DNA of 49,051 nucleotides, taken from assembly GCF_001953305.1 (NCBI RefSeq), contig NZ_MTFE01000010.1, positions 4,577,966 through 4,627,016 of the forward strand, written 5' to 3'. A model generated the notes under the pieces. The model was not told the DNA's origin. It worked only from the letters and a program-made list of their open reading frames with translations, and searched no databases. The stretch's first letter is position 1. Each line of letters starts with the position of its first letter. Below are positions 36,718 to 48,890 of the stretch, piece after piece. A program made the position numbers and the translations under genes. Origin of the DNA: Cnuella takakiae. Its GTDB lineage: Bacteria > Bacteroidota > Bacteroidia > Chitinophagales > Chitinophagaceae.

Positions 36718-37407
36718 TTAGCGGCCCGCAGGCTGCAAAGCCTGAAGCAAGCCTTTGTAATAAGCTTCACTTACAGGCAATAGCTGCCCGCCGATCTGCA
36801 CCCCTGTGCGGTCGGCTTTTTGGATATGCGTGGTGGATACCAGGAAAGACCGGTGGATGCGAACAAACCGTGCCGCAGGCACCCAGTTGACGGCTTCGGC
36901 AAAGGTGCTGCGCGATAAAACTTTTCGATCCTTGAGCACAAAGCTTACATAGTTGCCGGTGGCTTCCAGGTACAGTATTTCATCAAAAAACACCTTTACC
37001 TGCTCCGAGCCCGTTTTGACAAACAGGTGGTCGGCCGCTTCAGTGGCGTTCCGGAAATTGTACAACTCGTAGGCCTTGTTGCAGGCCTTTACAAAACGGG
37101 CCAGCGAAAAAGGCTTGAGGAGGTAATCGATGGCATCCATCTCGAAGCTGGTAACGGCATGTTCGCTATAGGCAGTGGTAAACACCAGCAGGGGCTTGCG
37201 CGAAAGGCTGTTGTAAAAATCAATACCCGATATATCCGGCATTTTGATATCCAGGAAGATCAGGTCCACCGGTTCTTTCTGCAGGTAGTCCATAGCAGCA
37301 AAGGCATCAGTGAATGCTGCCTTCAGTTCCAGAAAGGGCACTTTGGCGGCATGTGCCCGCACCACTTCCAGGGCAATGGGTTCGTCGTCAACAACAATGG
37401 CTTTCAT
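36718..37407 (-). CDS. LytTR-family response regulator
   Basis: 229 residues. The receiver domain has the acidic pair Asp7-Asp8 in AIVVDDEPIAL and the phospho-acceptor Asp53 in LIFLDIKMPD. The C-terminal half (about 130-229) is a LytTR DNA-binding domain with ILYLEATGNYV, the FVRIHRSFLVS motif and LPVSEAYYKGLLQAL. It is the partner of the kinase 115 bases upstream. The ATG at 37407 is preferred over an adjacent GTG at 37410. In Bacteroidota such pairs often control nearby transport or surface genes; the exported sugar-oxidation genes just upstream on the same strand are candidate targets. No direct-repeat LytTR site could be picked out. Confidence 0.93.
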   Translation of the reverse strand: MKAIVVDDEPIALEVVRAHAAKVPFLELKAAFTDAFAAMDYLQKEPVDLIFLDIKMPDISGIDFYNSLSRKPLLVFTTAYSEHAVTSFEMDAIDYLLKPFSLARFVKACNKAYELYNFRNATEAADHLFVKTGSEQVKVFFDEILYLEATGNYVSFVLKDRKVLSRSTFAEAVNWVPAARFVRIHRSFLVSTTHIQKADRTGVQIGGQLLPVSEAYYKGLLQALQPAGR

Positions 37408-37522
37408 CACAAGATTTTAAACAAACAGGATACTATTACCGGCGCACAAATTAAGAAAGCTTGACCAGCCCGAACGGACAGCTACAAATATTTGGACCCG
37501 CTCCTGTCCGCCCGGCGGTCGC

Positions 37523-39067
37523 TTATTTCTTCCCGCCAGCCAATTCTATCACGAGGTGCACAAAGAAGTCGCGTGCATTTTCCCGTATCAGCAGTTCATG
37601 TTTCCCTGGATACAACAGCTGCAGGCGCTGCCTTACGTTGGCCAGCCCGATACCGCCATGGTACTGCTCCGGGTCGTGCAGGGGCCGCGGGTGCTTGCTA
37701 TTGTACACATCAAAATACAGGCTGTTTTCTTTTACTTCCAGCGACACTTTGATATAGGAAGGTTCGCGCAGGCTGATGCCATGCTTGAATGCATTTTCAA
37801 TAAAAGGAATGAGCAGCATGGGTGCCACCTGGAGGTGCGGCATGATGCCGGGTTGTATATCCACCTGTATGTTGATATCGGGGCTCGACTGGGTACGGAG
37901 CTTTTGCAGGCTGATGTAGTTATTGAGGTAGTCAACATCCCGAACCAGCGCTATTTTTTCCTGCATATTTTCGTGCAGCATAAAGCGCATCATATCGCCC
38001 AGCATCTGCGAAGCCTCGGCAGTGCGCTCCGCTCCTTCCTGCAGTGCGGTACCGTAAATGGTATTAAGCGCATTGAATAAGAAATGCGGGTTGATCTGGG
38101 AGCGCAGGAGGTCGAGGTTGGCAGCCGATGTTCCCAACTCTTTTTTAAGGGCATATAATTCTTCCTTGCCTTTGATTTGCCTTTTAAACATCGTCCAGGC
38201 AGCCGGCGCCACCACCAAAAATTGTATCAGGGCGTTCACCAAGGCAACACCAAAGCCATCATCTTCATCATCGAGGATATTGACCACAACAAATGCCACC
38301 AAGGCAAAAGCAAATATGCACAGCGGCAGCACCCGCACCATATAGCTCAGGAAGGGCCTTTTGCGGGCGTAGGCTGCAGGTATGAGGGTGCCAAAGGAAT
38401 AATTGTAAAGCAAAACCGCATTGGGCAAGCCGAAAAACCATAAGAAAAACAGTTCAGGTGCATGTATAGTCAGGAGAAAAAAACCAACAATTGCCCATAA
38501 CACAACCAACAGCAGTTTTTCGCGGCTAATAGTATTACCTGCCCACCAGTTACGCAAAAAAGGGAGCAGCACCCATGCACAGAAATACCGCACCATCAGG
38601 TAAGCAATAAAGAACAAGGCCATTTGAAAAGTCAACAGAAAGGATTCCTGGACCAGTTGTACAAAAGCTGCAGCCTTATTGGGCGGCGCAATCACCAGGT
38701 ATTGTTTCAGGTAAAATTGCGAGAGCAGGATGACAGCAAAAGCACCCAGTACCAGGCTAGCAGCCAGCCAGTACTGCCGGCTTTTTTCCTCATTGCGAAT
38801 GATGCGGGGCACCACCCTGAAGTTGAGCAGGGAAAAAGCAAAGAAAAGATAACAGGCACGTACCAGGAAGGGCAGCACATAATTCTGGTAATAGTTGAAC
38901 CCTACATTAGCCACTTCAAAATCCTGCCGGTTGGGTGCGTACCAGTTGCCATCGGCCCCGGAAATGGCAGGGGCAAGAAAAGTCATCAGGGAAATAATAA
39001 AAACGGCGGTGATGGTCCACAACTCAATAGCTGCGCCATTTATTCTTTTCAGACCGGCTTCTTTCAT
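37523..39067 (-). CDS. LytS/YehU-type membrane sensor histidine kinase
   Basis: 514 residues. The N-terminal two thirds carry about seven hydrophobic helices (for example ITAVFIISLMTFLAPAISG and FAFALVAFVVVNIL). The C-terminal part is the His_kinase (LytS) type: the phospho-acceptor His328 in RSQINPHFLFNALNTIYG and the ATPase segment LLIPFIENAFKHGIS, then GGIGLANVRQRL. It has no PAS or HAMP element; the ligand is sensed in or by the membrane segment. It sits immediately upstream of its LytTR regulator. Spacing and order are those of a two-gene operon. Confidence 0.93.
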   Translation of the reverse strand: MKEAGLKRINGAAIELWTITAVFIISLMTFLAPAISGADGNWYAPNRQDFEVANVGFNYYQNYVLPFLVRACYLFFAFSLLNFRVVPRIIRNEEKSRQYWLAASLVLGAFAVILLSQFYLKQYLVIAPPNKAAAFVQLVQESFLLTFQMALFFIAYLMVRYFCAWVLLPFLRNWWAGNTISREKLLLVVLWAIVGFFLLTIHAPELFFLWFFGLPNAVLLYNYSFGTLIPAAYARKRPFLSYMVRVLPLCIFAFALVAFVVVNILDDEDDGFGVALVNALIQFLVVAPAAWTMFKRQIKGKEELYALKKELGTSAANLDLLRSQINPHFLFNALNTIYGTALQEGAERTAEASQMLGDMMRFMLHENMQEKIALVRDVDYLNNYISLQKLRTQSSPDINIQVDIQPGIMPHLQVAPMLLIPFIENAFKHGISLREPSYIKVSLEVKENSLYFDVYNSKHPRPLHDPEQYHGGIGLANVRQRLQLLYPGKHELLIRENARDFFVHLVIELAGGKK

Positions 39068-39171: not shown

Positions 39172-40530
39172 TCAGCCTTTCCGGGCTTCCAGGATTTTTA
39201 TACAATTACTTAGCGACCGGAAATTGTGATAGGTTGCTTTCCAGATATGCGCCTTGTTACCGGTGCGGCGCTCGGGTTCTTTGTCCAGGCCTTCTTCGTA
39301 CCAGTCGCCGTACTGGTGGTCGATCAGGTAGGTTTGGGCATATTGCCACAGCTGGACGAACTTTCCAGCATAGTCCAGTGGATCATCCGGATAAAGCCGG
39401 GAACATATGAGTAAGGTATTGAGCCCTTCGGCCTGGGCCCACCAGTTCTTGCTATCCTTGATGATGGTAATGGCGGTATCGCCGGGAAAATAATAGCCCT
39501 GGTCGTAAAACCCGCCCAAAGCTTTATCCCAGCCGATGCGCAGGGAATGATCCACCATCTCTTTACCCTTGCGCAGCACATCGGCATGGCGGTAGTTGCC
39601 AACGGCTTCGGAAGCTTCCATCATCAGGTAGGCTGTTTCCACATCATGGCCAAAGGAAACATGGTCCACGTTGCGGTGCTGCAGGATGCCTTCACGGCCT
39701 TTATCCCGGAAAGTAACAGGCTTCCATTCGGGGGTAAGAAACAATTGCAGGTAGCCTTTTGGCTGTATGATTTTATCCAGCAGCAGGTCGAGCATTTCCT
39801 GCACCCTTGTTTTCACCAGCGGATCGGGCCACACATGGTAGAGTTCGGTAAAAGCTTCCAACAGGTGGATGGAAGAATTCTGATCCTTATAGCCCAGTGT
39901 GGAAGTGGAAGGTGTTTGTGCATTGCGAACGGCAGGTTTGCCATCCTGGCGGAGATTTTGAAAATACCCTTTCGCCTTTGCATCGTGGGTGTGTTGCTCC
40001 AGCCAGTAGAAGGCACGTTTTGCCAACCCCAATGCACCCGTATCTTTCGATACAGCATAGTAAGCTGCCAGGCCGTAAATACCGAAGGCATGGCCATAAG
40101 CTTCTTTCATATCGCTCTTCACCTTGCCATCCCTGCTTACCAGGTTGTGAAAGCCGCCGTTTTCCTGATCCCACATCCTGTCGCGCAAAAACAGGTAGCC
40201 ATGTTTTGCCATGGGCAGGTAACGCTCATCTTTGTAAAACGCTGTCGCCTTTGCCGTTGACCAGATATGGCGGGCCTGCGTAACAATCATCTTATCCTGT
40301 GCACCCACGGGTTGCCAGTTGTAGGAAAAGGTGCTGAGATAACCACCATACTGCGTATCAATATTGCGGGGGTAAGAATGATCCAGCAGTCCTTCTTTTG
40401 CGGCATACCGCATCTGCGGCAGGATGCTGTCGGGGATGGCACCGGGCTGCGCAACAGCACTATAAAACTGGGTAGTAAAACAAATGGATAAAGCAAGTTG
40501 TACCAACCGGCTAAAAAGCGGAAAAGGCAT
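39172..40530 (-). CDS. exported AGE-family (N-acylglucosamine 2-epimerase-like) enzyme
   Basis: 452 residues from the ATG at 40530, which starts a Sec signal peptide (FSRLVQLALSICFTTQFYSAVAQ). The mature protein is an (alpha/alpha)6 barrel of the AGE superfamily: QARHIWSTAKATAFY, AYGHAFGIYGLAAYYAVS, and the C-terminal NWWAQAEGLNTLL with the usual His/Trp-lined pocket. Relatives are cellobiose and mannobiose 2-epimerase, N-acylglucosamine 2-epimerase and aldose-ketose isomerases. Its leader puts it in the periplasm or at the outer membrane, matching the other exported enzymes in the run 40672-47201. It is the last gene of that run; the NTF2-like gene is 141 bases upstream. Substrate unknown. 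Confidence 0.87.
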   Translation of the reverse strand: MPFPLFSRLVQLALSICFTTQFYSAVAQPGAIPDSILPQMRYAAKEGLLDHSYPRNIDTQYGGYLSTFSYNWQPVGAQDKMIVTQARHIWSTAKATAFYKDERYLPMAKHGYLFLRDRMWDQENGGFHNLVSRDGKVKSDMKEAYGHAFGIYGLAAYYAVSKDTGALGLAKRAFYWLEQHTHDAKAKGYFQNLRQDGKPAVRNAQTPSTSTLGYKDQNSSIHLLEAFTELYHVWPDPLVKTRVQEMLDLLLDKIIQPKGYLQLFLTPEWKPVTFRDKGREGILQHRNVDHVSFGHDVETAYLMMEASEAVGNYRHADVLRKGKEMVDHSLRIGWDKALGGFYDQGYYFPGDTAITIIKDSKNWWAQAEGLNTLLICSRLYPDDPLDYAGKFVQLWQYAQTYLIDHQYGDWYEEGLDKEPERRTGNKAHIWKATYHNFRSLSNCIKILEARKG

Positions 40531-40671
40531 GGCAATCGTTGTTGAATGGTGAGCGCAATCAGACGTCTTTCCCCAGGTGTCTATCATGGCGCAAGCAAAT
40601 AACGGAACCCAGGAAAAAGAACAGGCAGAAACTATCCTTTGGCTAAGCATGCCATCACCCCTGCGGCCTTC

Positions 40672-41100
40672 CTATTGCACTTTCACGGCCTGGCGTGCCA
40701 GCAGCTTCCATTGCTTTTTATCTTTTACCCAAACCAGCAGTACATGCAGCTTTACATCGCCGGGCTTGCCCCCATCTACAGTTTGACCGGTGAGCAGGTG
40801 GCGCACCAGTGCGGTATTGTTGGCAATGGTGATCTGCTGGTTGTCGAGGTTCATGCTTTTAAAGTCGGACCTGCCGCTGGCCAGCGCACTGATATAAGCG
40901 GCCTTGTCTTCGATCTTGCCACTGGAGTGGCCATAACTCAGGCCGGGCATGGTGATGCGGTCGAGCACTGCGCTATCGGCATCAATCATGGCCTGCCGCA
41001 GGGTTTCTACCGCCCTGGCTACATCGGCTTCGTCTTTTGTTTGGGCAAACAATACATTGGTGGCAAACAGCAAGGCAAAAAACAACAGGTTCTGCTTCAT
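40672..41100 (-). CDS. secreted NTF2/SnoaL-like (DUF4440-type) protein
   Basis: 142 residues with signal peptide MKQNLLFFALLFATNVLFAQ. The mature part fits the small NTF2-like alpha+beta cone: AVETLRQAMIDADSAVLDRI, then MPGLSYGHSSGKIEDKAAYI, ending in LLVWVKDKKQWKLLARQAVK. Members bind small ligands or are SnoaL-type cyclases and dehydratases, but most are uncharacterised. It lies 47 bases downstream of the symporter gene, likely in the same operon, and probably supports the periplasmic pathway in an unknown way. Confidence 0.88.
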   Translation of the reverse strand: MKQNLLFFALLFATNVLFAQTKDEADVARAVETLRQAMIDADSAVLDRITMPGLSYGHSSGKIEDKAAYISALASGRSDFKSMNLDNQQITIANNTALVRHLLTGQTVDGGKPGDVKLHVLLVWVKDKKQWKLLARQAVKVQ

Positions 41101-41147
41101 CAGTAAAACGGGGTTAGGTAAGTGTTGATGTATCCACGAATATAGGT

Positions 41148-42302
41148 TCAGCTTTTCACTTCACTTACCTGTGGTATCGTGGGTTGCGCAAGGGCACTAT
41201 TCTGTACCTCGGGTTTTGGTTCATCCTTTGGGGGGCGGTTGTGCCACCAGCTTGCCAGCGAGGAGCCGGTAATATTCATCAGCGGGCCAAAAATGGCAGG
41301 CGCCAGGCCCACAGTTGCGATCTTGCCCATTTCCTTGGCAAGGCCGGAAGCAAGACCACCGTTCTGCATGCCCACTTCAATGGCAATGGTGCGGCAATCG
41401 CGTTCGCTCATGCGAAACAGCCTGCCCGACCAGTAGCCCAGCAGGTATCCAAAAAGATTGTGCACCAGCACCACACCAATCAGCGCGGGTCCTATCTGCA
41501 ACAGGCTATCCCTGCCCGCCGCCGTGATGATGACAATGATAAAGGCAATGCCAAACATCGATACCAGGGGCATCACCCTGTTAAGCCATCCTGCCTTACC
41601 GCGCAGCAACCTGTTAACGGCAAGACCGGCGCCAATAGGAATGATCACCATCTTGATAATATCCCACATCATCTTTGTTACGTCAATTTCCACCAGGGCA
41701 CCAGCCAGCATTTTCATCAGCACAGGGGTAACAAAAGGCGCCAGCAAGGTAGTGACTGAAGTAATGGTAATAGACAGTGCGAGGTTGGCCTTTGCCAGGT
41801 ACGACATTACATTGGAAGCCATCCCACTGGGCGAACAGCCGATCAGCACGATGCCTGCTGCAATCTCTGGGGGGAAATTGGTAAGGCTTGCCAGCGTGAA
41901 GCCAAGAAAAGGCATAATAACAAATTGGCTCGCTACGCCTATCACCACGCCCTTCGGCATCTTTACCACACCCACAAAATCCTGCATGCTCATGCTGGTA
42001 CCCATACCAAACATGATCAACTGTATCAGAGGGGTGATCAGCCCGGAGAGCTTGTAGCCTCCCCATTGCTGGAAATACTGCGGGTAATAAAGAGCCAGCG
42101 CTACGGCTGCAAAAATGATGATGGTAAATGAAAAGCCTTTGAGCGCATTGCTATACCTGAAAGCAAGCGCCAACCCCAGAAAGGCAGCCATCAACAGCCA
42201 GCCAGCCCATTGGTGCTGTTGCAGCAGGGTTACCGTTATAAAGGCAGCCAGGGCAACAAGTGCAATACCATAAAAAATCTTTGCATTTGAAGAAGCGGTC
42301 AT
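41148..42302 (-). CDS. BASS-family Na+-coupled transporter (bile acid:sodium symporter fold)
   Basis: 384 residues from the ATG at 42302, with about ten membrane helices. Conserved pieces are MFGMGTSMSMQDFVGVVKMP, GCSPSGMASNVMSYLAKANL with the crossover region, and RTIAIEVGMQNGGLASGLA, which is the second crossover with the Na+-site residues. Despite the family name, bacterial and plastid members carry keto-acids (pyruvate, pantoate) and other anions. In this position, after exported aldolases and a dehydratase, a 2-keto-acid or pyruvate symporter is the best reading. This is inference. An upstream extension of 19 codons is not needed. The C-terminus is a Pro/Lys-rich tail in the cytoplasm. 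Confidence 0.9.
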   Translation of the reverse strand: MTASSNAKIFYGIALVALAAFITVTLLQQHQWAGWLLMAAFLGLALAFRYSNALKGFSFTIIIFAAVALALYYPQYFQQWGGYKLSGLITPLIQLIMFGMGTSMSMQDFVGVVKMPKGVVIGVASQFVIMPFLGFTLASLTNFPPEIAAGIVLIGCSPSGMASNVMSYLAKANLALSITITSVTTLLAPFVTPVLMKMLAGALVEIDVTKMMWDIIKMVIIPIGAGLAVNRLLRGKAGWLNRVMPLVSMFGIAFIIVIITAAGRDSLLQIGPALIGVVLVHNLFGYLLGYWSGRLFRMSERDCRTIAIEVGMQNGGLASGLAKEMGKIATVGLAPAIFGPLMNITGSSLASWWHNRPPKDEPKPEVQNSALAQPTIPQVSEVKS

Positions 42303-42405
42303 ATGGAAAGAATAAATCGTTAGCGAGCAAGGATGCACTAAGGCAAAAAGATATGCCATGTTCCTTTGCCATAGTGCATGTAAAGCTTGTAGCCTAAAAA
42401 ATGCC

Positions 42406-43893
42406 TTAACTGAAAATACGGTCGTGCGAACGCTTGGTATCCCACTCGGTTGTAGGCGCGAAGTACGACTTGTCAGAAGGATGCAGGTGTGCCTTTACCA
42501 CATCGTCATTCAATTCAATACCAAGGCCCGGTGCCGTCAGCGGCAGGTTGGCAAAACCCTTGGTGATCAGTTTGCGGCCATCGGTAGTTTTTACCATATC
42601 CTCCCACCAGGGCAGGTCCACAGAGTGGTGCTCCAGTGCCAGGAAGTTTTGCGTGGCAGCGGCACAGTGCACGTTAGCCATAAACGATACCGGCGTGCCT
42701 GCCTGGTGCATGGCCATGGCAATACCATATTCTTCGGCATAGTCGCCAATGCGCTTGGTTTCGAGCAGGCCACCGGAAGAGGCCAGGTCGGGATGTACAA
42801 TATCCACGGCACGTGCATCAATGAGCGGCTTGAAATTCTTTAACAGGTAAATATCCTCGCCGGTAAGCGTTGGGGTTTCCAGTGCTGCGGTCATGGTTTT
42901 CCACTGGTCGGTATACTCCCACGACACGATATCTTCCAGCCAGGCAAGCCGGTATTTTTCCAGTGCCTTGCCCAGGCGGATGCCGTTGTTGTAATCGAAG
43001 TGACCATAGTGGTCGGTTGACAATGGGATCTCATATCCAATCATGCTTCGCACATTGGCTACAATTTCCTGGAGGTGTTCCAGGCCTTTATCCGTGATCT
43101 GGATCTGGGTAAAAGGATGCAGGGTATTGCTGTAAGCCATGTAGTTGTTGCCATCACCCCATTGCGCCAGGTCGCCCTTGGCATTTTGCCAGAATTTGGC
43201 GTTTACCAAAGTATCAGGCTTGCCCTTCAATTCCCCAACCGACACGTCCATCTTCAGCCAGGTATACCCCTGGTCGTTGATGCGGTAGTTGATCAGTTTC
43301 TTTTGCTCTTCGGGCGAACTGGCCTCAGGTGTATCGGCATAAAGGCGCACATTGTTGCGATAGCGGCCACCCAGCAACTGCCATGCGGGTACATTGTAGG
43401 CCTTACCTACAATATCCCAAAGGGCCATTTCTATGGCACATACACCACCAGCCTGGCGCGACTGTCCGCCAAACTGTTTGATCTTTTTAAAGATCATTTC
43501 CACGTTACAGGGGTTTTCGCCCAGCAGCCTGCTTTTCAGCATCAGGGCATAACGCTCGTCGGCACCGTCGCGCACTTCACCCAAACCATAAATACCCTGG
43601 TTGGTATCGATGCGGATGATGGCCGTGCGGCCCAGTACGGTGGTGACGCAGTACCGGATATCGGTAATCTTCAACTCGGAAGGAGCCGAGTAGCGACGCA
43701 CCTTTTGTGTGCTTTGTGCAATCACTTCTTCAACAGGTGCAAACAGGAGCGAACCACCCAGGGTGATGCCACCCAGCGCGGTTTTTTTCAGGAAGTTGCG
43801 GCGGGGGTTTTCCCGCTGTTCAACGGTTTCATTCTGGGTTGGCTCCGGATCCTTTAATCCAAGCCGGGCAAGCATTCGTTGTGATGGATTCAT
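42406..43893 (-). CDS. Tat-exported enolase-superfamily (mandelate racemase/muconate lactonising) dehydratase
   Basis: 495 residues. A 28-residue lead-in is followed by a twin-arginine signal PRRNFLKKTALGGITLGGSL, so the enzyme is exported after folding. The catalytic barrel has the MLE/MR layout: WLKMDVSVG (Lys), STDHYGHFDYNNG (Asp-His), AWLEDIVSWEY (Glu), TLTGEDIYL (Glu) and AMHQAGTPVSFMAN (His). That ligand set and the HQAGTP sequence point to acid-sugar dehydratases of the galactonate, gluconate or mannonate type, giving 2-keto-3-deoxy sugar acids. Family members without a leader are cytoplasmic. It lies between the Gfo dehydrogenase and the transporter, fitting oxidation then dehydration. 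Exact stereo-specificity cannot be read. Confidence 0.9.
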   Translation of the reverse strand: MNPSQRMLARLGLKDPEPTQNETVEQRENPRRNFLKKTALGGITLGGSLLFAPVEEVIAQSTQKVRRYSAPSELKITDIRYCVTTVLGRTAIIRIDTNQGIYGLGEVRDGADERYALMLKSRLLGENPCNVEMIFKKIKQFGGQSRQAGGVCAIEMALWDIVGKAYNVPAWQLLGGRYRNNVRLYADTPEASSPEEQKKLINYRINDQGYTWLKMDVSVGELKGKPDTLVNAKFWQNAKGDLAQWGDGNNYMAYSNTLHPFTQIQITDKGLEHLQEIVANVRSMIGYEIPLSTDHYGHFDYNNGIRLGKALEKYRLAWLEDIVSWEYTDQWKTMTAALETPTLTGEDIYLLKNFKPLIDARAVDIVHPDLASSGGLLETKRIGDYAEEYGIAMAMHQAGTPVSFMANVHCAAATQNFLALEHHSVDLPWWEDMVKTTDGRKLITKGFANLPLTAPGLGIELNDDVVKAHLHPSDKSYFAPTTEWDTKRSHDRIFS

Positions 43894-44087
43894 GATCTAA
43901 GGGATGGGTTGGTTTATTGACAATTGAAAATGCGATATGCCTGTTCCGGGTACCCGCTTTCGGCAAAGCCCCGTTTTTATGAAAGCAGCTTCAGCCAAAT
44001 AGTTTTGGGAAGCAAACAGTGATGCAGCAGCTTCATCAGAACTTTTATGCTAAACTGTTTGCCACAGCTGTTGCTAACCAGTGGTAT

Positions 44088-45185
44088 TTAAAGCCTTACT
44101 TCTTTGCCTGTGGCAGCTGCTTTGTAAATGGCCTCAACAATGCGGATATCGCGCAGGCCTTCTTCACCGGGTGCCAGCATGGGTTTGCCCTGCATGATGC
44201 TCAGCGCATCATCATCCATTTGCTTCGCCTGCTGCCAGGGAACATCATACGGGAAATTGATCACGCCCAGCGGGCTACTTCCTTTATTGCCTGCATAACC
44301 CTGGAAAGGCGACATCTTAATGCTGCCTTTTTCACAGGTGATATCGAGGTCGTTGAGGTTTTCTCCATAGCTGGTTTTAATGTCGGCAAATACGCCTCCC
44401 GGAAATGCCAGCCTTGCCACCACGGTTTCATCCAGGCCGTTGCGGTATATTTCCGGGCGGGTAGTGGATGTTTTGGCAGATACGATAGCAATGGGCTCCA
44501 TACCTGCACCCAGGCGGGCGCCCTGGATGGCATATACCCCCATATCGCCCAGCACACCGCCGCCCATTTCGCGTTGCTGCTTCCAGTGGTCGGTGCGGTT
44601 TTCGCGGTAGCCGGCAGCGCTGTATACCTGCTTTACCTTGCCCAACAGTTGCTTGCCTACAATGCGCCGGTACTCCTGCGTGTTGGGCTCATGCTGGAGG
44701 CGGTAACCGATTGCCAGCTTTACTTTATTGCGGTTGCAGGCATCAATCATGGCCTGGCAATCCTGCACGGAAGGCGCCATGGGCTTTTCGCACCACACCT
44801 GCTTGCCGGCGTTGGCGGCCCGCACTACGTACTCGCGGTGCATGGAAGGCGGCAGCACCACGTACACAACATCTATATCGGGGTTGTTGGCAATGCTGTC
44901 GAAATTGGCATAGCTGTAAATATTCTTGTCTGGAATCTTGTATTGGGTTTTCCAGCGCTCGGCCTTTTCCGGCGTGCCGGTAACAATGCCTGCGAGGTAG
45001 CAATGTTGTGTTTGCTGCAGGGCAGGCGCCAGCAAATCGGTACTGTAATAGCCAAGTCCCACGAGGGCCACACCCAGCTTTTTCTTTTGCGGGCGGGTGG
45101 CAGCCAGCAATACATTGGGTGAAAACGCCAGTGCACCACCTGCAAGGGTCAGGTTTCGAAGCAGGGTTCTGCGGGTATAGTTCAT
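44088..45185 (-). CDS. Tat-exported Gfo/Idh/MocA-family oxidoreductase
   Basis: 365 residues. A twin-arginine leader (TRRTLLRNLTLAGGALAF) precedes a Rossmann fold (VALVGLGYYSTDLLAPAL) and the family signature AGKQVWCEKPMAPS with the catalytic Lys. The C-terminal domain includes MGGGVLGDMGVYAIQGARLG. This is the glucose-fructose oxidoreductase type, whose best-known member in Zymomonas is itself Tat-exported with tightly bound NADP. Here it could oxidise an aldose to an aldonolactone in the periplasm. It is between the RraA-like genes and the dehydratase, in the order expected of a pathway. Confidence 0.92.
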   Translation of the reverse strand: MNYTRRTLLRNLTLAGGALAFSPNVLLAATRPQKKKLGVALVGLGYYSTDLLAPALQQTQHCYLAGIVTGTPEKAERWKTQYKIPDKNIYSYANFDSIANNPDIDVVYVVLPPSMHREYVVRAANAGKQVWCEKPMAPSVQDCQAMIDACNRNKVKLAIGYRLQHEPNTQEYRRIVGKQLLGKVKQVYSAAGYRENRTDHWKQQREMGGGVLGDMGVYAIQGARLGAGMEPIAIVSAKTSTTRPEIYRNGLDETVVARLAFPGGVFADIKTSYGENLNDLDITCEKGSIKMSPFQGYAGNKGSSPLGVINFPYDVPWQQAKQMDDDALSIMQGKPMLAPGEEGLRDIRIVEAIYKAAATGKEVRL

Positions 45186-45248
45186 CGTTGCAGGTATTGT
45201 GTTGCTAAAAGGTCTTTGCCGCTACCAGTTAAAGAGGCGAAAATTATT

Positions 45249-46172
45249 TTACCAGGTTCTTTTGCTCATCATCTTATCCAGCTCCTCGCGGGTCATGGCA
45301 CCCAGTTCCGGATGGCCTTTCAGCCATTGCAAAAAAGCCAGTTTTATTTCATCGGTCCATTGGCTGTCGATTTGCCCGGTGGTGTATTTGCCGGTACGCA
45401 CCATTTCAAATCCAAACTGGTCTTTGCGGATCACGAACTCGGCGGTGCTCACCACCTGTTCGGCCATATGCGCCGGCACAAACAAAACACCTTCGCGCTG
45501 GGCAATCACCAGGTCGCCTGGCAACACTATGGCCTGCCCGATTCGTATGGGAGTGTTCAAACCCATCAGCACCACTTCCTCCAAAAAGCTGGGATGAAAA
45601 TCGCGTACAAAAGCATTGAAGCCCCTGATATTTTTCAGCTCCTGCAGGTCGCGGGATGCGCCATTAAACACCACACCATTGCCTGTTTTTGCATAAATGG
45701 CATTGGCCAGCGTGGACCCCATGAGGGTGCCGCCGCCAATTTTGCCAAAAGCATCGGCTACATACACATCACCCTGCTGCAATACCTCGATGGGCCAGGA
45801 ATTGGTATTGCCTTTGCGCCCCTGCTGCTGCCCGCGTTGCTTGATCTCTTTTTCTACATCGGGGCGGCTGGGCAGGAACATGGCCGTAAGTGCCCGGCCC
45901 ACTACCGGCGTAGTATCGTTTACCATGCGCCAGCCACCTTCAAACTGGTTGGTGTAGCCTTCATTTTTGAGTACCGTCCAGGCATCATCGATATAGATCT
46001 TCCTGGCCCGTTGCAATAAAGCTTCCGGCAGTTTGGGCCGCCCGTCGCTAAAACGTTCGCCCTTCCACTCTGCGGTCAGGAAGATGAGTTCCTCTTTACT
46101 GATGGTCTGCGCTTTCAATTGAAAGCTGGTAACTACAATACAGGAAAAGAGCAGGTATTTGAAAAAAGACAT
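45249..46172 (-). CDS. exported RraA/HMG-aldolase-like protein, copy 1
   Basis: 307 residues with a Sec signal peptide from the ATG at 46172 (MSFFKYLLFSCIVVTSFQLKAQ). After an extra N-terminal segment of about 70 residues (AEWKGERFSDGRPKLPEALL) comes the RraA fold: TLMGSTLANAIYAKTGNG, then VVFNGASRDLQELK with the Arg-Asp pair used by 4-hydroxy-4-methyl-2-oxoglutarate aldolases, then LPGDLVIAQREGVLFVP. The usual late Asp in that last motif is replaced. RraA-fold aldolases split 2-keto-4-hydroxy acids to pyruvate plus an aldehyde or acid. A periplasmic site excludes the RNase E inhibitor role. It has a paralogue next door and lies 63 bases upstream of the Gfo gene. Confidence 0.88.
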   Translation of the reverse strand: MSFFKYLLFSCIVVTSFQLKAQTISKEELIFLTAEWKGERFSDGRPKLPEALLQRARKIYIDDAWTVLKNEGYTNQFEGGWRMVNDTTPVVGRALTAMFLPSRPDVEKEIKQRGQQQGRKGNTNSWPIEVLQQGDVYVADAFGKIGGGTLMGSTLANAIYAKTGNGVVFNGASRDLQELKNIRGFNAFVRDFHPSFLEEVVLMGLNTPIRIGQAIVLPGDLVIAQREGVLFVPAHMAEQVVSTAEFVIRKDQFGFEMVRTGKYTTGQIDSQWTDEIKLAFLQWLKGHPELGAMTREELDKMMSKRTW

Positions 46173-46265
46173 GTTTGGAAAATACTTGACCAACTTGATT
46201 TGAATTTCTGAAAGCTGTTTGAAGCTTGTGTGTTCTTTATTTTTTGATGACACCTGTGGCAAGTA

Positions 46266-47201
46266 CTAATGCCCTTCCTTGCCCAGGTATTCTTCAATCT
46301 CCTGTTTGCTTACTGCAAGTTTCCTGGGGTATTTGGCCACCCAGGTACGGAACTCGTTCTTGATCTTATCATTCCAGTCGCCATGGATTTCACCGGATGG
46401 GTACTTGCTTTGTTGCAACAGGTAACGTTCAAACTCATCGCGCAGGCCCACCAGCTCCGAATCTTTCACCAGTCCCTCCACCAGGTGGGCAGGAATAAAG
46501 GCAACACCAAATTCATTGGCAAAAACCACATCGCCGGGAAACACGGTTACTTCACCAATACGGATCGGCGTATTGATGGCTGTTGGTGTCATGTCCTTGA
46601 TATAGGAGGGATGATGGCCTTTTACCCATGCGTTAAATCCGGGTGTTTCCCTGAGTTCCTGCATGTCCCGCACCGACCCGTAGAACACTACGCCCCTGCC
46701 TGTTTTGCCATACACGGCATTGCCCAGGCTGGAGCCGATCAGGGTACCGTCTTTTACCTTGCCAAATCCATCGGCCACGTACACATCCCCTTTTTGCAGG
46801 ATGTCGATGGGCCAGATATTGATGCCGCCTTTTTGCGAGCGGCCTTCTTCTTTACCCATTACCCGCACCAGGCTGTCCAGGTCGGGACGGGTAGGCATAA
46901 ACTGGGCGGTCACTACCCTTCCGGTCATCTTTTCGCCGGGTTTGAGGATGACCCAGTTTCCCTCTACCTGGTTGCGGTAACCACGGCGATCCATATAACC
47001 CCATACCTGTTCGAGGGTACAGTTTTGCAGTCGTTCAAGAATAATGTCGGGCACATTTGGCCTGCCATCGGGCAGGCGCTCGCCGTTCCAGCGCGAGGTG
47101 AGCATTTTTACATATTCGGGGGAAGCGCCCACCCTTTGTGCCGCAACGGGCAGCAGGCTGGAGCTGAGGGCAATGGCAGCAATTAGTTTTCGGAGCAGCA
47201 T
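46266..47201 (-). CDS. exported RraA/HMG-aldolase-like protein, copy 2
   Basis: 311 residues, clearly a paralogue of copy 1 along its whole length, including the N-terminal extension (SRWNGERLPDGRPNVPDIIL). Signal peptide MLLRKLIAAIALSSSLLPVAAQ. The catalytic segment VVFYGSVRDMQELRETPGF keeps the Arg-Asp pair, and VFPGDVVFANEFGVAFIP replaces the usual late motif. The C-terminus is different (REEL-like IEEYLGKEGH). It is probably the first gene of the exported sugar-acid run, which then reads in the order copy 1, Gfo, dehydratase, symporter, NTF2-like, epimerase. Two copies suggest two substrates or a heteromeric enzyme. Confidence 0.88.
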   Translation of the reverse strand: MLLRKLIAAIALSSSLLPVAAQRVGASPEYVKMLTSRWNGERLPDGRPNVPDIILERLQNCTLEQVWGYMDRRGYRNQVEGNWVILKPGEKMTGRVVTAQFMPTRPDLDSLVRVMGKEEGRSQKGGINIWPIDILQKGDVYVADGFGKVKDGTLIGSSLGNAVYGKTGRGVVFYGSVRDMQELRETPGFNAWVKGHHPSYIKDMTPTAINTPIRIGEVTVFPGDVVFANEFGVAFIPAHLVEGLVKDSELVGLRDEFERYLLQQSKYPSGEIHGDWNDKIKNEFRTWVAKYPRKLAVSKQEIEEYLGKEGH

Positions 47202-47675: not shown

Positions 47676-48890
47676 TTACAGGTTACTATCCTTGTTACCG
47701 CTGTTTCGGATGATCTCGTTCGTTGTACCCGACTCGGTACCAATTCCCGACTGGTCGCCGGTATTGCCGGTATAAGACCGGTTTTCGAGTCCAGCGCCGG
47801 AAGTGCTGCCCTTAGTGCTGCCACTGGTGCTGCTGTACCGGTCGCTATCGGTGCTGCGCGATGTGTCGCCGGCAGTGGTGCGGCTGGTATCGGTGTAGGA
47901 GCGATTACTGTCGCCATAACTGCGGCCGCTGTCGTCGCTGCTGCGGGCACCTGCATTGGACCAACTGCCGCTGCCTTGCTCCTGAACCACACGGATGCGG
48001 TTTTCTACGTTGTGCACCCCCATGATGCTTTCCACCAGGTCTTCGGCACGGCGCTTTTCGGAGCGGTTGCGAACAGTGCCGGTAAGCACTACTTCGTTGC
48101 CTTCCACTTTTACGTCAATGTCCGATGCATCTACATGGCCGTCATAAGCCAGCCGTTCGCATACATCTTCACGAATGCGGTCTTCGGAGCGCTGGTACCC
48201 ACGGGGTCCTTTGCCAAAATGTTCGCCCTGGCTGCGGTAATCGCTGCTGCGGTTGCCACCTACACTGCGGCGGTTGCCGTATTCGTTGCGATCGTTGTCA
48301 TCGTCATTGAACCAGCTGCGCACTTCATTTTTGGCGCGGCCCCACCAGTTGTTGTCATCATTATCCTGGCGGTTGCTTTGGTTGTAGCGGTCGCTGCCAC
48401 CCATGTGCTGTCCCGATCCCTGGTAACCCGAACGGCCATAATTACCCTGGTTCATACCGCTGGAATAGCCATAGTTGCCCTGCTGGCCATAACCCTGGCG
48501 GTTGCCATAATCTTCATACGAACGACCCATGTCGCTGCCGGAAGAGCCCTGGCTGTCCCAGGCACCAAAGCCACCACCGGTGTTGCCTACCTGACCGTAG
48601 CCACCGGGATTGTAATCGTTGCCCGAACGCTGGTTGCCCTGGAACATACCGCCCTGGTAGCCTCCCTGGCGCCCATAGTTGTGTCCGCGGGCCCTGTTGG
48701 TTTCTTCTTCCCGCTGCTTCAGGTTGCCATGATACACCTCACCATACCCAGGATGCGGGGTATTGCCCTGCTGCATGTTGTAGTTGGTGTCCATGTCGCC
48801 ACCTTCACGCCATTGTTCCTGCTGACGGCCCTGCTGACCCCAGCCAGATTGCTGACCGTACTGGTCGCGGTTTTGCCTGTTGTTGTCCAT
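47676..48890 (-). CDS. BON-domain protein with long prion-like low-complexity arms
   Basis: 404 residues. Residues 1 to about 200 are almost entirely Gln, Gly, Asn, Tyr and Arg (repeats of GYGQQGNYG and NRQGYG), a prion-like composition. A short conserved core NWWGRAKNEVRSWFNDDD follows, then a BON domain at about 234-301 (IREDVCERLAYDGHVDASDI, VEGNEVVLTGTVRNRSEKRRAED). The last 100 residues are Ser/Thr/Gly/Asp-rich. BON domains bind phospholipid or act in stress proteins such as OsmY; the SWFxDD core is seen in Bacteroidota and proteobacterial general-stress proteins. No signal peptide is visible, so it is cytoplasmic or its export is atypical. Start ATG at 48890; own terminator. Confidence 0.88.
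   Translation of the reverse strand: MDNNRQNRDQYGQQSGWGQQGRQQEQWREGGDMDTNYNMQQGNTPHPGYGEVYHGNLKQREEETNRARGHNYGRQGGYQGGMFQGNQRSGNDYNPGGYGQVGNTGGGFGAWDSQGSSGSDMGRSYEDYGNRQGYGQQGNYGYSSGMNQGNYGRSGYQGSGQHMGGSDRYNQSNRQDNDDNNWWGRAKNEVRSWFNDDDNDRNEYGNRRSVGGNRSSDYRSQGEHFGKGPRGYQRSEDRIREDVCERLAYDGHVDASDIDVKVEGNEVVLTGTVRNRSEKRRAEDLVESIMGVHNVENRIRVVQEQGSGSWSNAGARSSDDSGRSYGDSNRSYTDTSRTTAGDTSRSTDSDRYSSTSGSTKGSTSGAGLENRSYTGNTGDQSGIGTESGTTNEIIRNSGNKDSNL

Follow-up and report, generated by a model that had tools for sequence, protein, structure and literature searches.

A seven-gene row of Cnuella takakiae with leader-bearing putative dehydratase and RraA-fold proteins points to a recurrent Bacteroidota module, probably for sugar-acid breakdown outside the cytoplasm

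In non-phosphorylative pathways of the Entner–Doudoroff or Dahms type, a sugar is oxidized, the acid formed is dehydrated by an enolase-superfamily or IlvD-type enzyme and aldol cleavage then yields pyruvate and an aldehyde, all of this in the cytoplasm, where pyruvate-making central carbon chemistry is usually placed. The 2-keto-3-deoxygluconate aldolase of these classical routes is of the Schiff-base type, whereas the putative aldolase considered here has the RraA fold. In this study, we analysed a row of seven genes in a stretch of 49,051 nucleotides (the window; contig NZ_MTFE01000010.1) from the 5.70 Mb genome of Cnuella takakiae. The row encodes two RraA-like proteins (RraA1 and RraA2), a Gfo/Idh/MocA dehydrogenase (Gfo), an enolase-superfamily protein of the mandelate racemase/muconate lactonizing type (MLE), a BASS transporter, a DUF4440 protein and an AGE epimerase. 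It resembles the classical routes in the order of oxidation, dehydration and cleavage that we propose for it, but differs from them in that the dehydratase has a twin-arginine (Tat) and the putative aldolase a Sec leader, and in that the transporter is of a keto-acid type and not a sugar transporter. On balance we think it probable that the row is a periplasmic Bacteroidota module which converts a sugar acid to a short keto acid, so that the sugar need be neither taken up nor phosphorylated.

Several described systems share single features with this row. The window Gfo is similar over nearly its whole length to the Zymomonas glucose-fructose oxidoreductase (GFOR) and the Caulobacter aldose-aldose oxidoreductase (AAOR) and also has a Tat-type leader; as these enzymes are described in the two sources, no exported dehydratase or aldolase works together with them (PMC4628093, PMC9795676). 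With HMG/CHA aldolase and the RraA-like class II pyruvate aldolases the window RraA proteins share the fold and an Arg-Asp metal/catalytic pair. Unlike HMG/CHA aldolase, RraA1 is predicted to be exported and has 311 residues with conserved segments at both ends, both window copies have a Ser at the first motif position, and the gene links are to sugar acids and not to aromatic compounds. FlDet of Flavobacterium sp. UMI-01 is likewise a Bacteroidota RraA-family enzyme with a 2-keto-3-deoxy sugar acid as substrate; we liken it by description and not by sequence, and in that work the dehydratase/decarboxylase was sought in cell extract, with the terms 'periplasm' and 'signal peptide' appearing 0 times in the main text (PMC8563752). 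Mannanase clusters of the haloarchaeal genus Natronoglomus combine mannonate dehydratases, an RraA-family protein and a GH109 sugar-dehydrogenase-like protein; mannose is predicted to enter a semi-phosphorylative pathway there, and the source, as far as it deals with these clusters, does not describe export of these enzymes (PMC10963439). Finally, the 3-keto-glycoside pathways (LacABC, DUF1080) of Caulobacter and some Bacteroidota are proposed to carry out sugar oxidation and its follow-up outside the cytoplasm, but as described they lead to a 3-keto sugar that is then hydrolysed, with no C–C cleavage to pyruvate (PMC9007349). Among the matches listed in the open-access literature, with subscription papers and preprints outside this scope, neither an exported dehydratase–RraA module nor a periplasmic aldolase was described; to the first-pass annotation no complete periplasmic version of this set was known. 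The row is probably a real and recurrent relocation of a known pathway type, non-phosphorylative sugar-acid breakdown, to the outside of the cytoplasm, and this has probably gone undescribed so far.

The gene content and order of the row, its leaders, the conservation of a dehydratase–RraA–BASS core and the catalytic residues can be read from the sequences compared here. Neighbourhoods were selected solely by similarity to the window RraA and form two sets: 80 named loci, which are the best 80 of at least 523 confirmed ones, and 42 neighbourhoods from the family, taken to be Chitinophagaceae, to which the nearest named rows belong, comprising 40 fetched of 61 RraA places, a second cluster of the same genome (L005) and the window. 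The RraA of eight named loci is identical to one found in the second set. Genes were called with a longest-ORF (open reading frame) script and labelled by BLAST to clusters built in this analysis, for each of which one representative was compared with Pfam or NCBIfam. MLE genes were present within 4 kb of RraA in 68 of the 80 named loci, BASS in 37, SusC-like genes in 31 and putatively SusD-like genes in 25, while DUF4440 homologues were found in 11, MFS transporters in five, Gfo in three and AGE in one; some of the genes labelled MLE are distant members of the enolase superfamily (9 in the strict leader count given below). MLE accounted for 100 of 492 genes near RraA as compared with 4 of 263 beyond 6 kb, and in 63/80 loci an RraA gene has a direct MLE neighbour on the same strand (gap up to 400 bp). 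All 80 loci look like Bacteroidota by their titles, in a sample of the best 80 of at least 523 for which other phyla were not searched on purpose. Among the names are Spirosoma, Larkinella, Adhaeribacter, Pontibacter, Algoriphagus, Cyclobacterium, Dyadobacter, Prolixibacteraceae, Tannerella, Saonia and Pseudozobellia, which are soil, freshwater, marine and animal-associated groups. An RraA match was present in 35 of 147 family genomes (E 1e-10) and in 17 of 296 genomes drawn from the phylum (E 1e-50), the own genome being included in both counts. RraA, a Tat-type MLE and BASS are, judged from these neighbourhoods, a recurrent Bacteroidota module that is far from universal. The first-pass annotation named co-conservation of the genes as a check, and for RraA, dehydratase and BASS the 4 kb counts bear it out; the entire sequence that it proposed for this cell is not the rule, as most relatives have no such dehydrogenase near RraA.

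Leaders were judged with a lenient and a strict heuristic of our own and by eye. The lenient version was too generous, giving Sec calls to 8 of 15 FGGY kinases and to all 24 BASS proteins, and long N-regions made it overlook the leaders of 11 of 28 MLE proteins; for this reason counts rest on the strict version except where stated. In the 80 named loci, 100 of 116 RraA proteins were called Sec and 92 of 93 MLE proteins Tat, against 125 (Sec) and 29 (Tat) of 541 unclassified neighbouring genes and 0 of 21 FGGY, FAH-like, AraC and IlvD-like proteins, so that absent or lipoprotein-type leaders in orthologues, which might have overturned the first reading, are not what was found overall. Of 112 aligned MLE sequences, 111 have both the twin Arg and the Phe expected in a Tat motif and the remaining one has a gap there, and an RR pair lies near the N-terminus in 115 of 119 counted rows (of 130 distinct; rows of at least 400 residues). 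Since the leaders are conserved across relatives, export of RraA and the dehydratase is not peculiar to this genome and appears to be a property of the relatives examined. In the window, the strict heuristic accepts RraA1 (Sec by both heuristics), RraA2, Gfo and MLE, and rejects DUF4440 and AGE, whose leaders are called by the lenient heuristic only and are the least certain of the row. It also accepts BASS at an internal start, which is a membrane helix, and BASS shows membrane helices only. The first-pass statement that six enzymes have Sec or Tat leaders and BASS none thus holds, with DUF4440 and AGE on the lenient call. The RraA2 leader is seen only from an internal start at about 46172 (MSFFKYLL...) and not from the TTG at 46262, and that of AGE from an internal ATG at about 40530, where the open frame extends to 40650. 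The Tat leader of Gfo contains the motif TRRTLLR (leader letters by the heuristic: MNYTRRTLLRNLTLAGGALAFSPNVLLA), and that of MLE the motif PRRNFLK, with R31-R32, after an extension of about 30 residues. Many MLE proteins, that of the window included, have such a stretch of about 30 residues (MTPSQK.L.KLGL-like or MKSILKQI-like) ahead of the Tat motif.

A variant of the module bears on what RraA may do. Among the 42 family neighbourhoods, MLE was present in 25 and a pyridoxal-phosphate (PLP) protein in 10, with both in none; BASS was present in 24 and MFS in seven. The ten PLP-type loci (L057, L058, L061, L062, L063, L064, L065, L067, L069 and L071) contain RraA and mostly BASS too. The representative of the PLP family is DgaE-like (TIGR01437, 167 bits, below the cut-off of 385) and matches the d-glucosaminate-6-phosphate ammonia lyase structure 7lc0 (1.1e-25). 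By the lenient test, all 13 PLP proteins and 7 of 8 RidA homologues have a Tat leader; a Tat-exported PLP ammonia lyase would itself be unusual. An amidohydrolase gene is present in all 10 PLP neighbourhoods, its representative scoring above the cut-off of the NF006689 deacetylase-family model, and some of these neighbourhoods also contain RidA, an SGL lactonase or a cytochrome-c-linked quinoprotein sugar dehydrogenase, and two of them GH20. The set reads as a predicted exported amino-sugar route that enters the same RraA–BASS end. As the unrelated MLE and PLP chemistries would both yield a 2-keto-3-deoxy acid, the shared RraA and transporter should act afterwards; this exchangeable dehydration step, inferred from gene content, is the strongest argument for RraA acting on a 2-keto-3-deoxy acid and the transporter on what comes after, and favours a C–C lyase.

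The AlphaFold2 model of RraA1 (pLDDT 93.6) matches RraA-fold structures in Foldseek, with 3k4i at 1.3e-14, 5x15 at 3.3e-14 (root-mean-square deviation 2.1) and the HMG/CHA aldolase 3noj at 2.3e-14 (TM 0.56/0.73), the last in a loose overlay (deviation 10.5 over 254 columns). We aligned 170 RraA sequences pooled from both locus sets (160 distinct), of which 169 have residues at the motif positions. R178 is present in 169/169 and D179 in 168/169, both window copies included, and by alignment to 3noj they are the Arg-Asp pair R123/D124 of the Pseudomonas putida enzyme. The letters of the HMG/CHA aldolase motif are D-X20-R-D, reportedly given by Mazurkewich in 2014. Its first position, 157, is occupied by Asp (112 sequences), Ser (45) or Ala (12), and 54 of 159 distinct sequences lack the Asp. 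An alternative metal motif of RraA-like aldolases is G-X20-R-D-X2-E/D; of this, the window copies have R-D-X2-E, with Ser at the Gly position. Most homologues have one of two motifs (PMC5065237). E182 is found in 40 of 54 distinct sequences of the Ser/Ala type and in 1 of 105 of the Asp type. We considered and rejected the idea that this covariation of positions 157 and 182 proves a compensated metal site; because the tree needs only 2–3 changes (sign test p 0.5–1), it is a clade pattern and not independent support. Both window proteins fall below the NCBIfam equivalog cut-off for ligK_PcmE (44.8 and 50.3 bits vs 304.5), and the highest identity of RraA2 in the tree set is 79% (L131). The pairing of a GSS with a GST copy seen in the window recurs: with both locus sets pooled, 17 of the 24 loci that encode GSS also encode GST or GAT, so that a mixed RraA oligomer is conceivable.

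In enolase-superfamily enzymes three acidic residues bind the metal, a His-Asp dyad takes part in catalysis and the His of a D-x-H motif can act as general acid. In an alignment of 112 distinct MLE sequences of strong similarity, from which short and fragmentary rows were dropped, D294, E320 and E346 (the metal ligands) and H396 and D369 (the dyad) are invariant (112/112), which upholds the earlier dehydratase call as far as catalytic residues go. The best PDB match is 2qq6 (1.2e-54), and M, H and R occur at the 2qq6-type positions in 29, 30 and 30 of the 112 sequences. The protein misses the curated cut-offs for galactonate dehydratase (175 bits vs 311) and ManD (151.8 vs 550) and is a probable, competent-looking, non-canonical member of the acid-sugar dehydratases. 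Prediction of a substrate from MLE or AGE was dropped as the curated equivalogs were not reached, so that no sugar is named here. At positions 2–17821 of L086 (Adhaeribacter aquaticus), three RraA genes share a same-strand array with nine MLE genes, of which one is truncated at the end of the locus; the eight complete MLE copies all have a twin-Arg leader after an N-terminal extension. An IlvD-like aldonate dehydratase is encoded near the module in L074, L079, L138, L151 and others, and some of these neighbourhoods add FAH-like and aldehyde dehydrogenase genes, a Weimberg-like set that is leaderless in the strict test.

The closest PDB matches of Gfo are the Caulobacter AAOR 5a02 (2.5e-72) and GFOR 1ofg (2e-62), over nearly the whole protein, with the next other match at 3.2e-29. 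In view of this lead we rejected an ordinary NAD(P)-releasing dehydrogenase. Both known enzymes carry Tat signal sequences and the Zymomonas one is periplasmic (PMC4628093), while the Caulobacter one binds NADP tightly (PMC9795676); as far as these sources describe it, the physiological function of the latter is currently unclear (PMC4628093). Owing to such bound NADP, a known solution, an NADP-dependent oxidation would be feasible where free NADP is not expected. As a conserved part of the module Gfo was rejected. Its orthologues were followed in 20 loci (the best 19 after the window and one lower, two regions being shortened by contig ends), and in one of them a DUF4440 gene (L188:10032-10493) adjoins the orthologue. 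In 6 of the 41 family neighbourhoods besides the window, a gene of the same Gfo cluster stands no more than 2.7 kb from RraA, three times on the same strand (L050, L052 and L054); L050 has the one-strand order MFS-MLE-RraA-Gfo-AGE with Gfo 6 bp from RraA, and its Gfo, the only one of the six compared with the PDB, is nearest to the Caulobacter AAOR (1.5e-84). AGE occurs within 5 kb of RraA in 7 of the 42 family neighbourhoods, the window included; those of L056 and L060 are only 28–32% like the window AGE and leaderless. The window AGE scores 120.1 bits in Pfam (threshold 23.4) and 146.6 against the EpiA equivalog (cut-off 800), with PDB matches 8h1k (2.7e-36) and 5zig (2e-35). Gfo and AGE look like recurrent optional inputs and are not part of the conserved core, in which respect the earlier account is changed.

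The cargo of BASS proteins of the PanS kind is of the keto-acid type. The window BASS matches Pfam SBF with 135.6 bits (threshold 24.3) and PDB 3zuy at 3.7e-64, and lies below the NCBIfam cut-offs for the PanS keto-acid transporter (232.4 vs 400) and the bass subfamily (224.8 vs 326.3). Within the module, BASS repeatedly has a DUF4440/NTF2-like gene as its neighbour.

We infer from this material the substrate, all of the reactions, the retro-aldol outcome, the transported compound and co-transcription of the row. In the reading that we favour, the AGE epimerase would adjust an incoming aldose, and Gfo, folded in the cytoplasm around NADP and exported by the Tat route, would oxidize it to an aldonolactone, a second sugar or an aldehyde being reduced at the same time. 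The lactone ring would then open spontaneously or with help, the Tat-exported MLE would dehydrate the aldonate to a 2-keto-3-deoxy aldonate, which RraA1 and RraA2, as metal-dependent enzymes, would cleave to pyruvate and an aldehyde, and BASS would import the keto acid with sodium.

A number of points weigh against this reading. Leaders indicate export and not that the reactions run; moreover, 16 of 116 RraA proteins were not called Sec, and in the lenient test 3 of 52 were flagged as possible lipoproteins, which would still be exported. Both window RraA proteins have the pattern S157-X20-R178-D179-X2-E182, with Ser in place of the Asp of D-X20-R-D, so that the earlier aldolase call is supported by the HMG/CHA-like fold and the Arg-Asp pair and weakened by the motif. 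The window MLE reads D294-H-Y-G-H where 2qq6 has D-M-H-G-R, with Tyr at the place of the D-x-H His. None of the seven row proteins reaches a curated NCBIfam cut-off, because of which their exact function cannot be read from profiles, and the window cluster has no lactonase gene. RraA1 has no match at 1e-10 in the two genomes of the same genus. Within 5 kb of RraA, 10 of the 80 named loci lack both a dehydratase and a recognized transporter and 28 have MLE and no recognized transporter; in the family set, seven neighbourhoods lack a recognized dehydratase and 11 a recognized transporter. Orthologues of the window Gfo stand beside RraA, MLE or BASS in 0 of the 20 loci, and one named locus (L119, 1/80) holds both MLE and PLP proteins. 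The MFS proteins that replace BASS in some relatives are nearest to d-galactonate transporters (285 bits, below the cut-off of 395) and possibly import the sugar acid itself. Taken together, the observation on which the first-pass annotation was built is confirmed and its interpretation is partly supported, in that the core is recurrent and the inputs exchangeable, with Gfo optional and the aldolase motif altered.

Gfo and AGE might instead be passengers, with MLE-RraA-BASS(-DUF4440) as the working unit. This would be fed by ready-made sugar acids, which in relatives could enter from outside by way of SusC/SusD-like proteins, or by quinoprotein dehydrogenases linked to cytochromes. This explanation agrees with the reading above on the core and is a real possibility, although not the one that we would expect. 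It would account for the Gfo orthologues missing from beside RraA (0/20), for the rarity of Gfo (3/80) and AGE (1/80) within 4 kb compared with SusC-like (31/80) and SusD-like (25/80) genes, and for the PQQ or GSDH proteins of some clusters, of which each representative has a cytochrome c domain; it fits less well with the same-cluster Gfo genes near RraA in 6/41 neighbourhoods, with the L050 row and with AGE in 7/42, two of these AGE proteins being dissimilar and leaderless.

Another possibility is that RraA, within the same exported module, is no aldolase and instead dehydrates and decarboxylates or rearranges the 2-keto-3-deoxy acid, so that BASS would import another keto compound or that acid itself. 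A Flavobacterium precedent exists, since FlDet is described as a 2-keto-3-deoxy-glucarate dehydratase/decarboxylase with no aldol cleavage (PMC8563752). The missing motif Asp (54/159 distinct sequences, the window copies among them) and the Weimberg-like IlvD, FAH and aldehyde dehydrogenase genes of a few neighbourhoods point the same way. We nevertheless regard this as rather unlikely, given the retention of R178 (169/169) and D179 (168/169), the fold match to HMG/CHA aldolase and the full D-X20-R-D in 112/169 sequences. In addition, the substrate of FlDet has a second carboxylate, which aldonates lack. It is very improbable that the row is not catabolic at all and that the exported RraA proteins are regulators or scavengers resembling RNase E inhibitors in a loose stress or envelope cluster. 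The fold is named after an RNase inhibitor and DUF4440 has no known function; on the other hand RNase E is cytoplasmic while 100/116 RraA proteins have leaders, and RraA is accompanied by dehydratases, by lactonases and SusC-like proteins and, in two loci, by GH20 hexosaminidases.

If the periplasmic sugar-acid reading is true, many Bacteroidota would split sugar acids, and probably amino-sugar acids, before these cross the inner membrane, and only a keto-acid carrier would be needed. Exported proteins of the RraA and mandelate racemase/muconate lactonizing families would thereby gain a function and their leaders an explanation, and a role would suggest itself for aldose-aldose oxidoreductase. 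A bolder version, which we consider quite improbable, would be a phosphate-free, glycolysis-like hub outside the cytoplasm, in which Tat-exported MLE (for aldonates) and a Tat-exported DgaE-like PLP lyase (for amino-aldonates, often with an exported RidA) feed one exported RraA aldolase and BASS or MFS imports the pyruvate. The window Gfo, with its bound NADP, would then take the aldehyde released by RraA or a second aldose as oxidant, turning hexose into pyruvate and a polyol without a soluble cofactor or an electron chain.

The earlier description of seven minus-strand genes of these families in a row is confirmed by ORF coordinates and Pfam (Table 1). The run occupies 39172-47201 in the order RraA1, RraA2, Gfo, MLE, BASS, DUF4440, AGE, and all domain matches (RraA-like twice, GFO_IDH_MocA, MR_MLE N and C, SBF, DUF4440 and GlcNAc_2-epim) lie above the gathering score. 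The intergenic gaps are 3, 63, 194, 46, 47 and 21 bp in row order by open-frame coordinates; with the likelier internal starts the gap before RraA2 becomes 93 bp and that before AGE 141 bp.

Table 1. Features of the row in the window, with probable functions, leaders and Pfam matches
Feature	Position	Strand	Description	Leader	Pfam match
RraA1	46266..47201	-	RraA-fold, probable class II 2-keto-acid C–C lyase	Sec, ~1-21	PF03737 3e-20
RraA2	45249..46172	-	Second RraA-fold protein	Sec, from MSFFKYLL start	PF03737 1.2e-16
Gfo	44088..45185	-	Gfo/Idh/MocA, aldose-aldose / glucose-fructose oxidoreductase type	Tat, ~1-28	
MLE	42406..43893	-	Probable enolase-superfamily acid-sugar dehydratase	Tat	PF13378 4e-43, PF02746 1.6e-11
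BASS	41148..42359	-	BASS/SBF family transporter, inner membrane	No cleaved leader	PF01758 2.1e-39
DUF4440	40672..41100	-	DUF4440/SnoaL (NTF2-like)	Probable Sec, MKQNLLFFALLFATNVLFA	PF14534 5.5e-18
AGE	39172..40530	-	AGE/cellobiose 2-epimerase-like	Probable Sec, from internal ATG	PF07221 1.7e-34

The second cluster of the same genome (L005, C1:5330000-5349999) encodes AraC, an FGGY kinase, BASS, RraA, MLE, a 549-residue protein and a second RraA, with GH20b-domain, SGL-like, PQQ-DH-like and SusC/SusD-like genes further out. The 549-residue protein (L005:7902-9551) has no Pfam match and is seen again in L066 and L068. The genome has four RraA-like matches, two per cluster, with Sec-like leaders on both L005 copies, five MR_MLE_C matches (four above the cut-off) and three SBF matches. 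Just downstream of AGE, on the same strand, a histidine kinase (PF06580) and a LytTR response regulator are encoded at 36718-39067 of the window; regulation of the row by this pair was considered and dropped, since weak homologues of both were present in no more than a few other regions (L045, L190 and L200). Directly upstream of the row, at 47676-48890, lies a gene for a protein with a BON domain and Gly/Gln-rich stretches.

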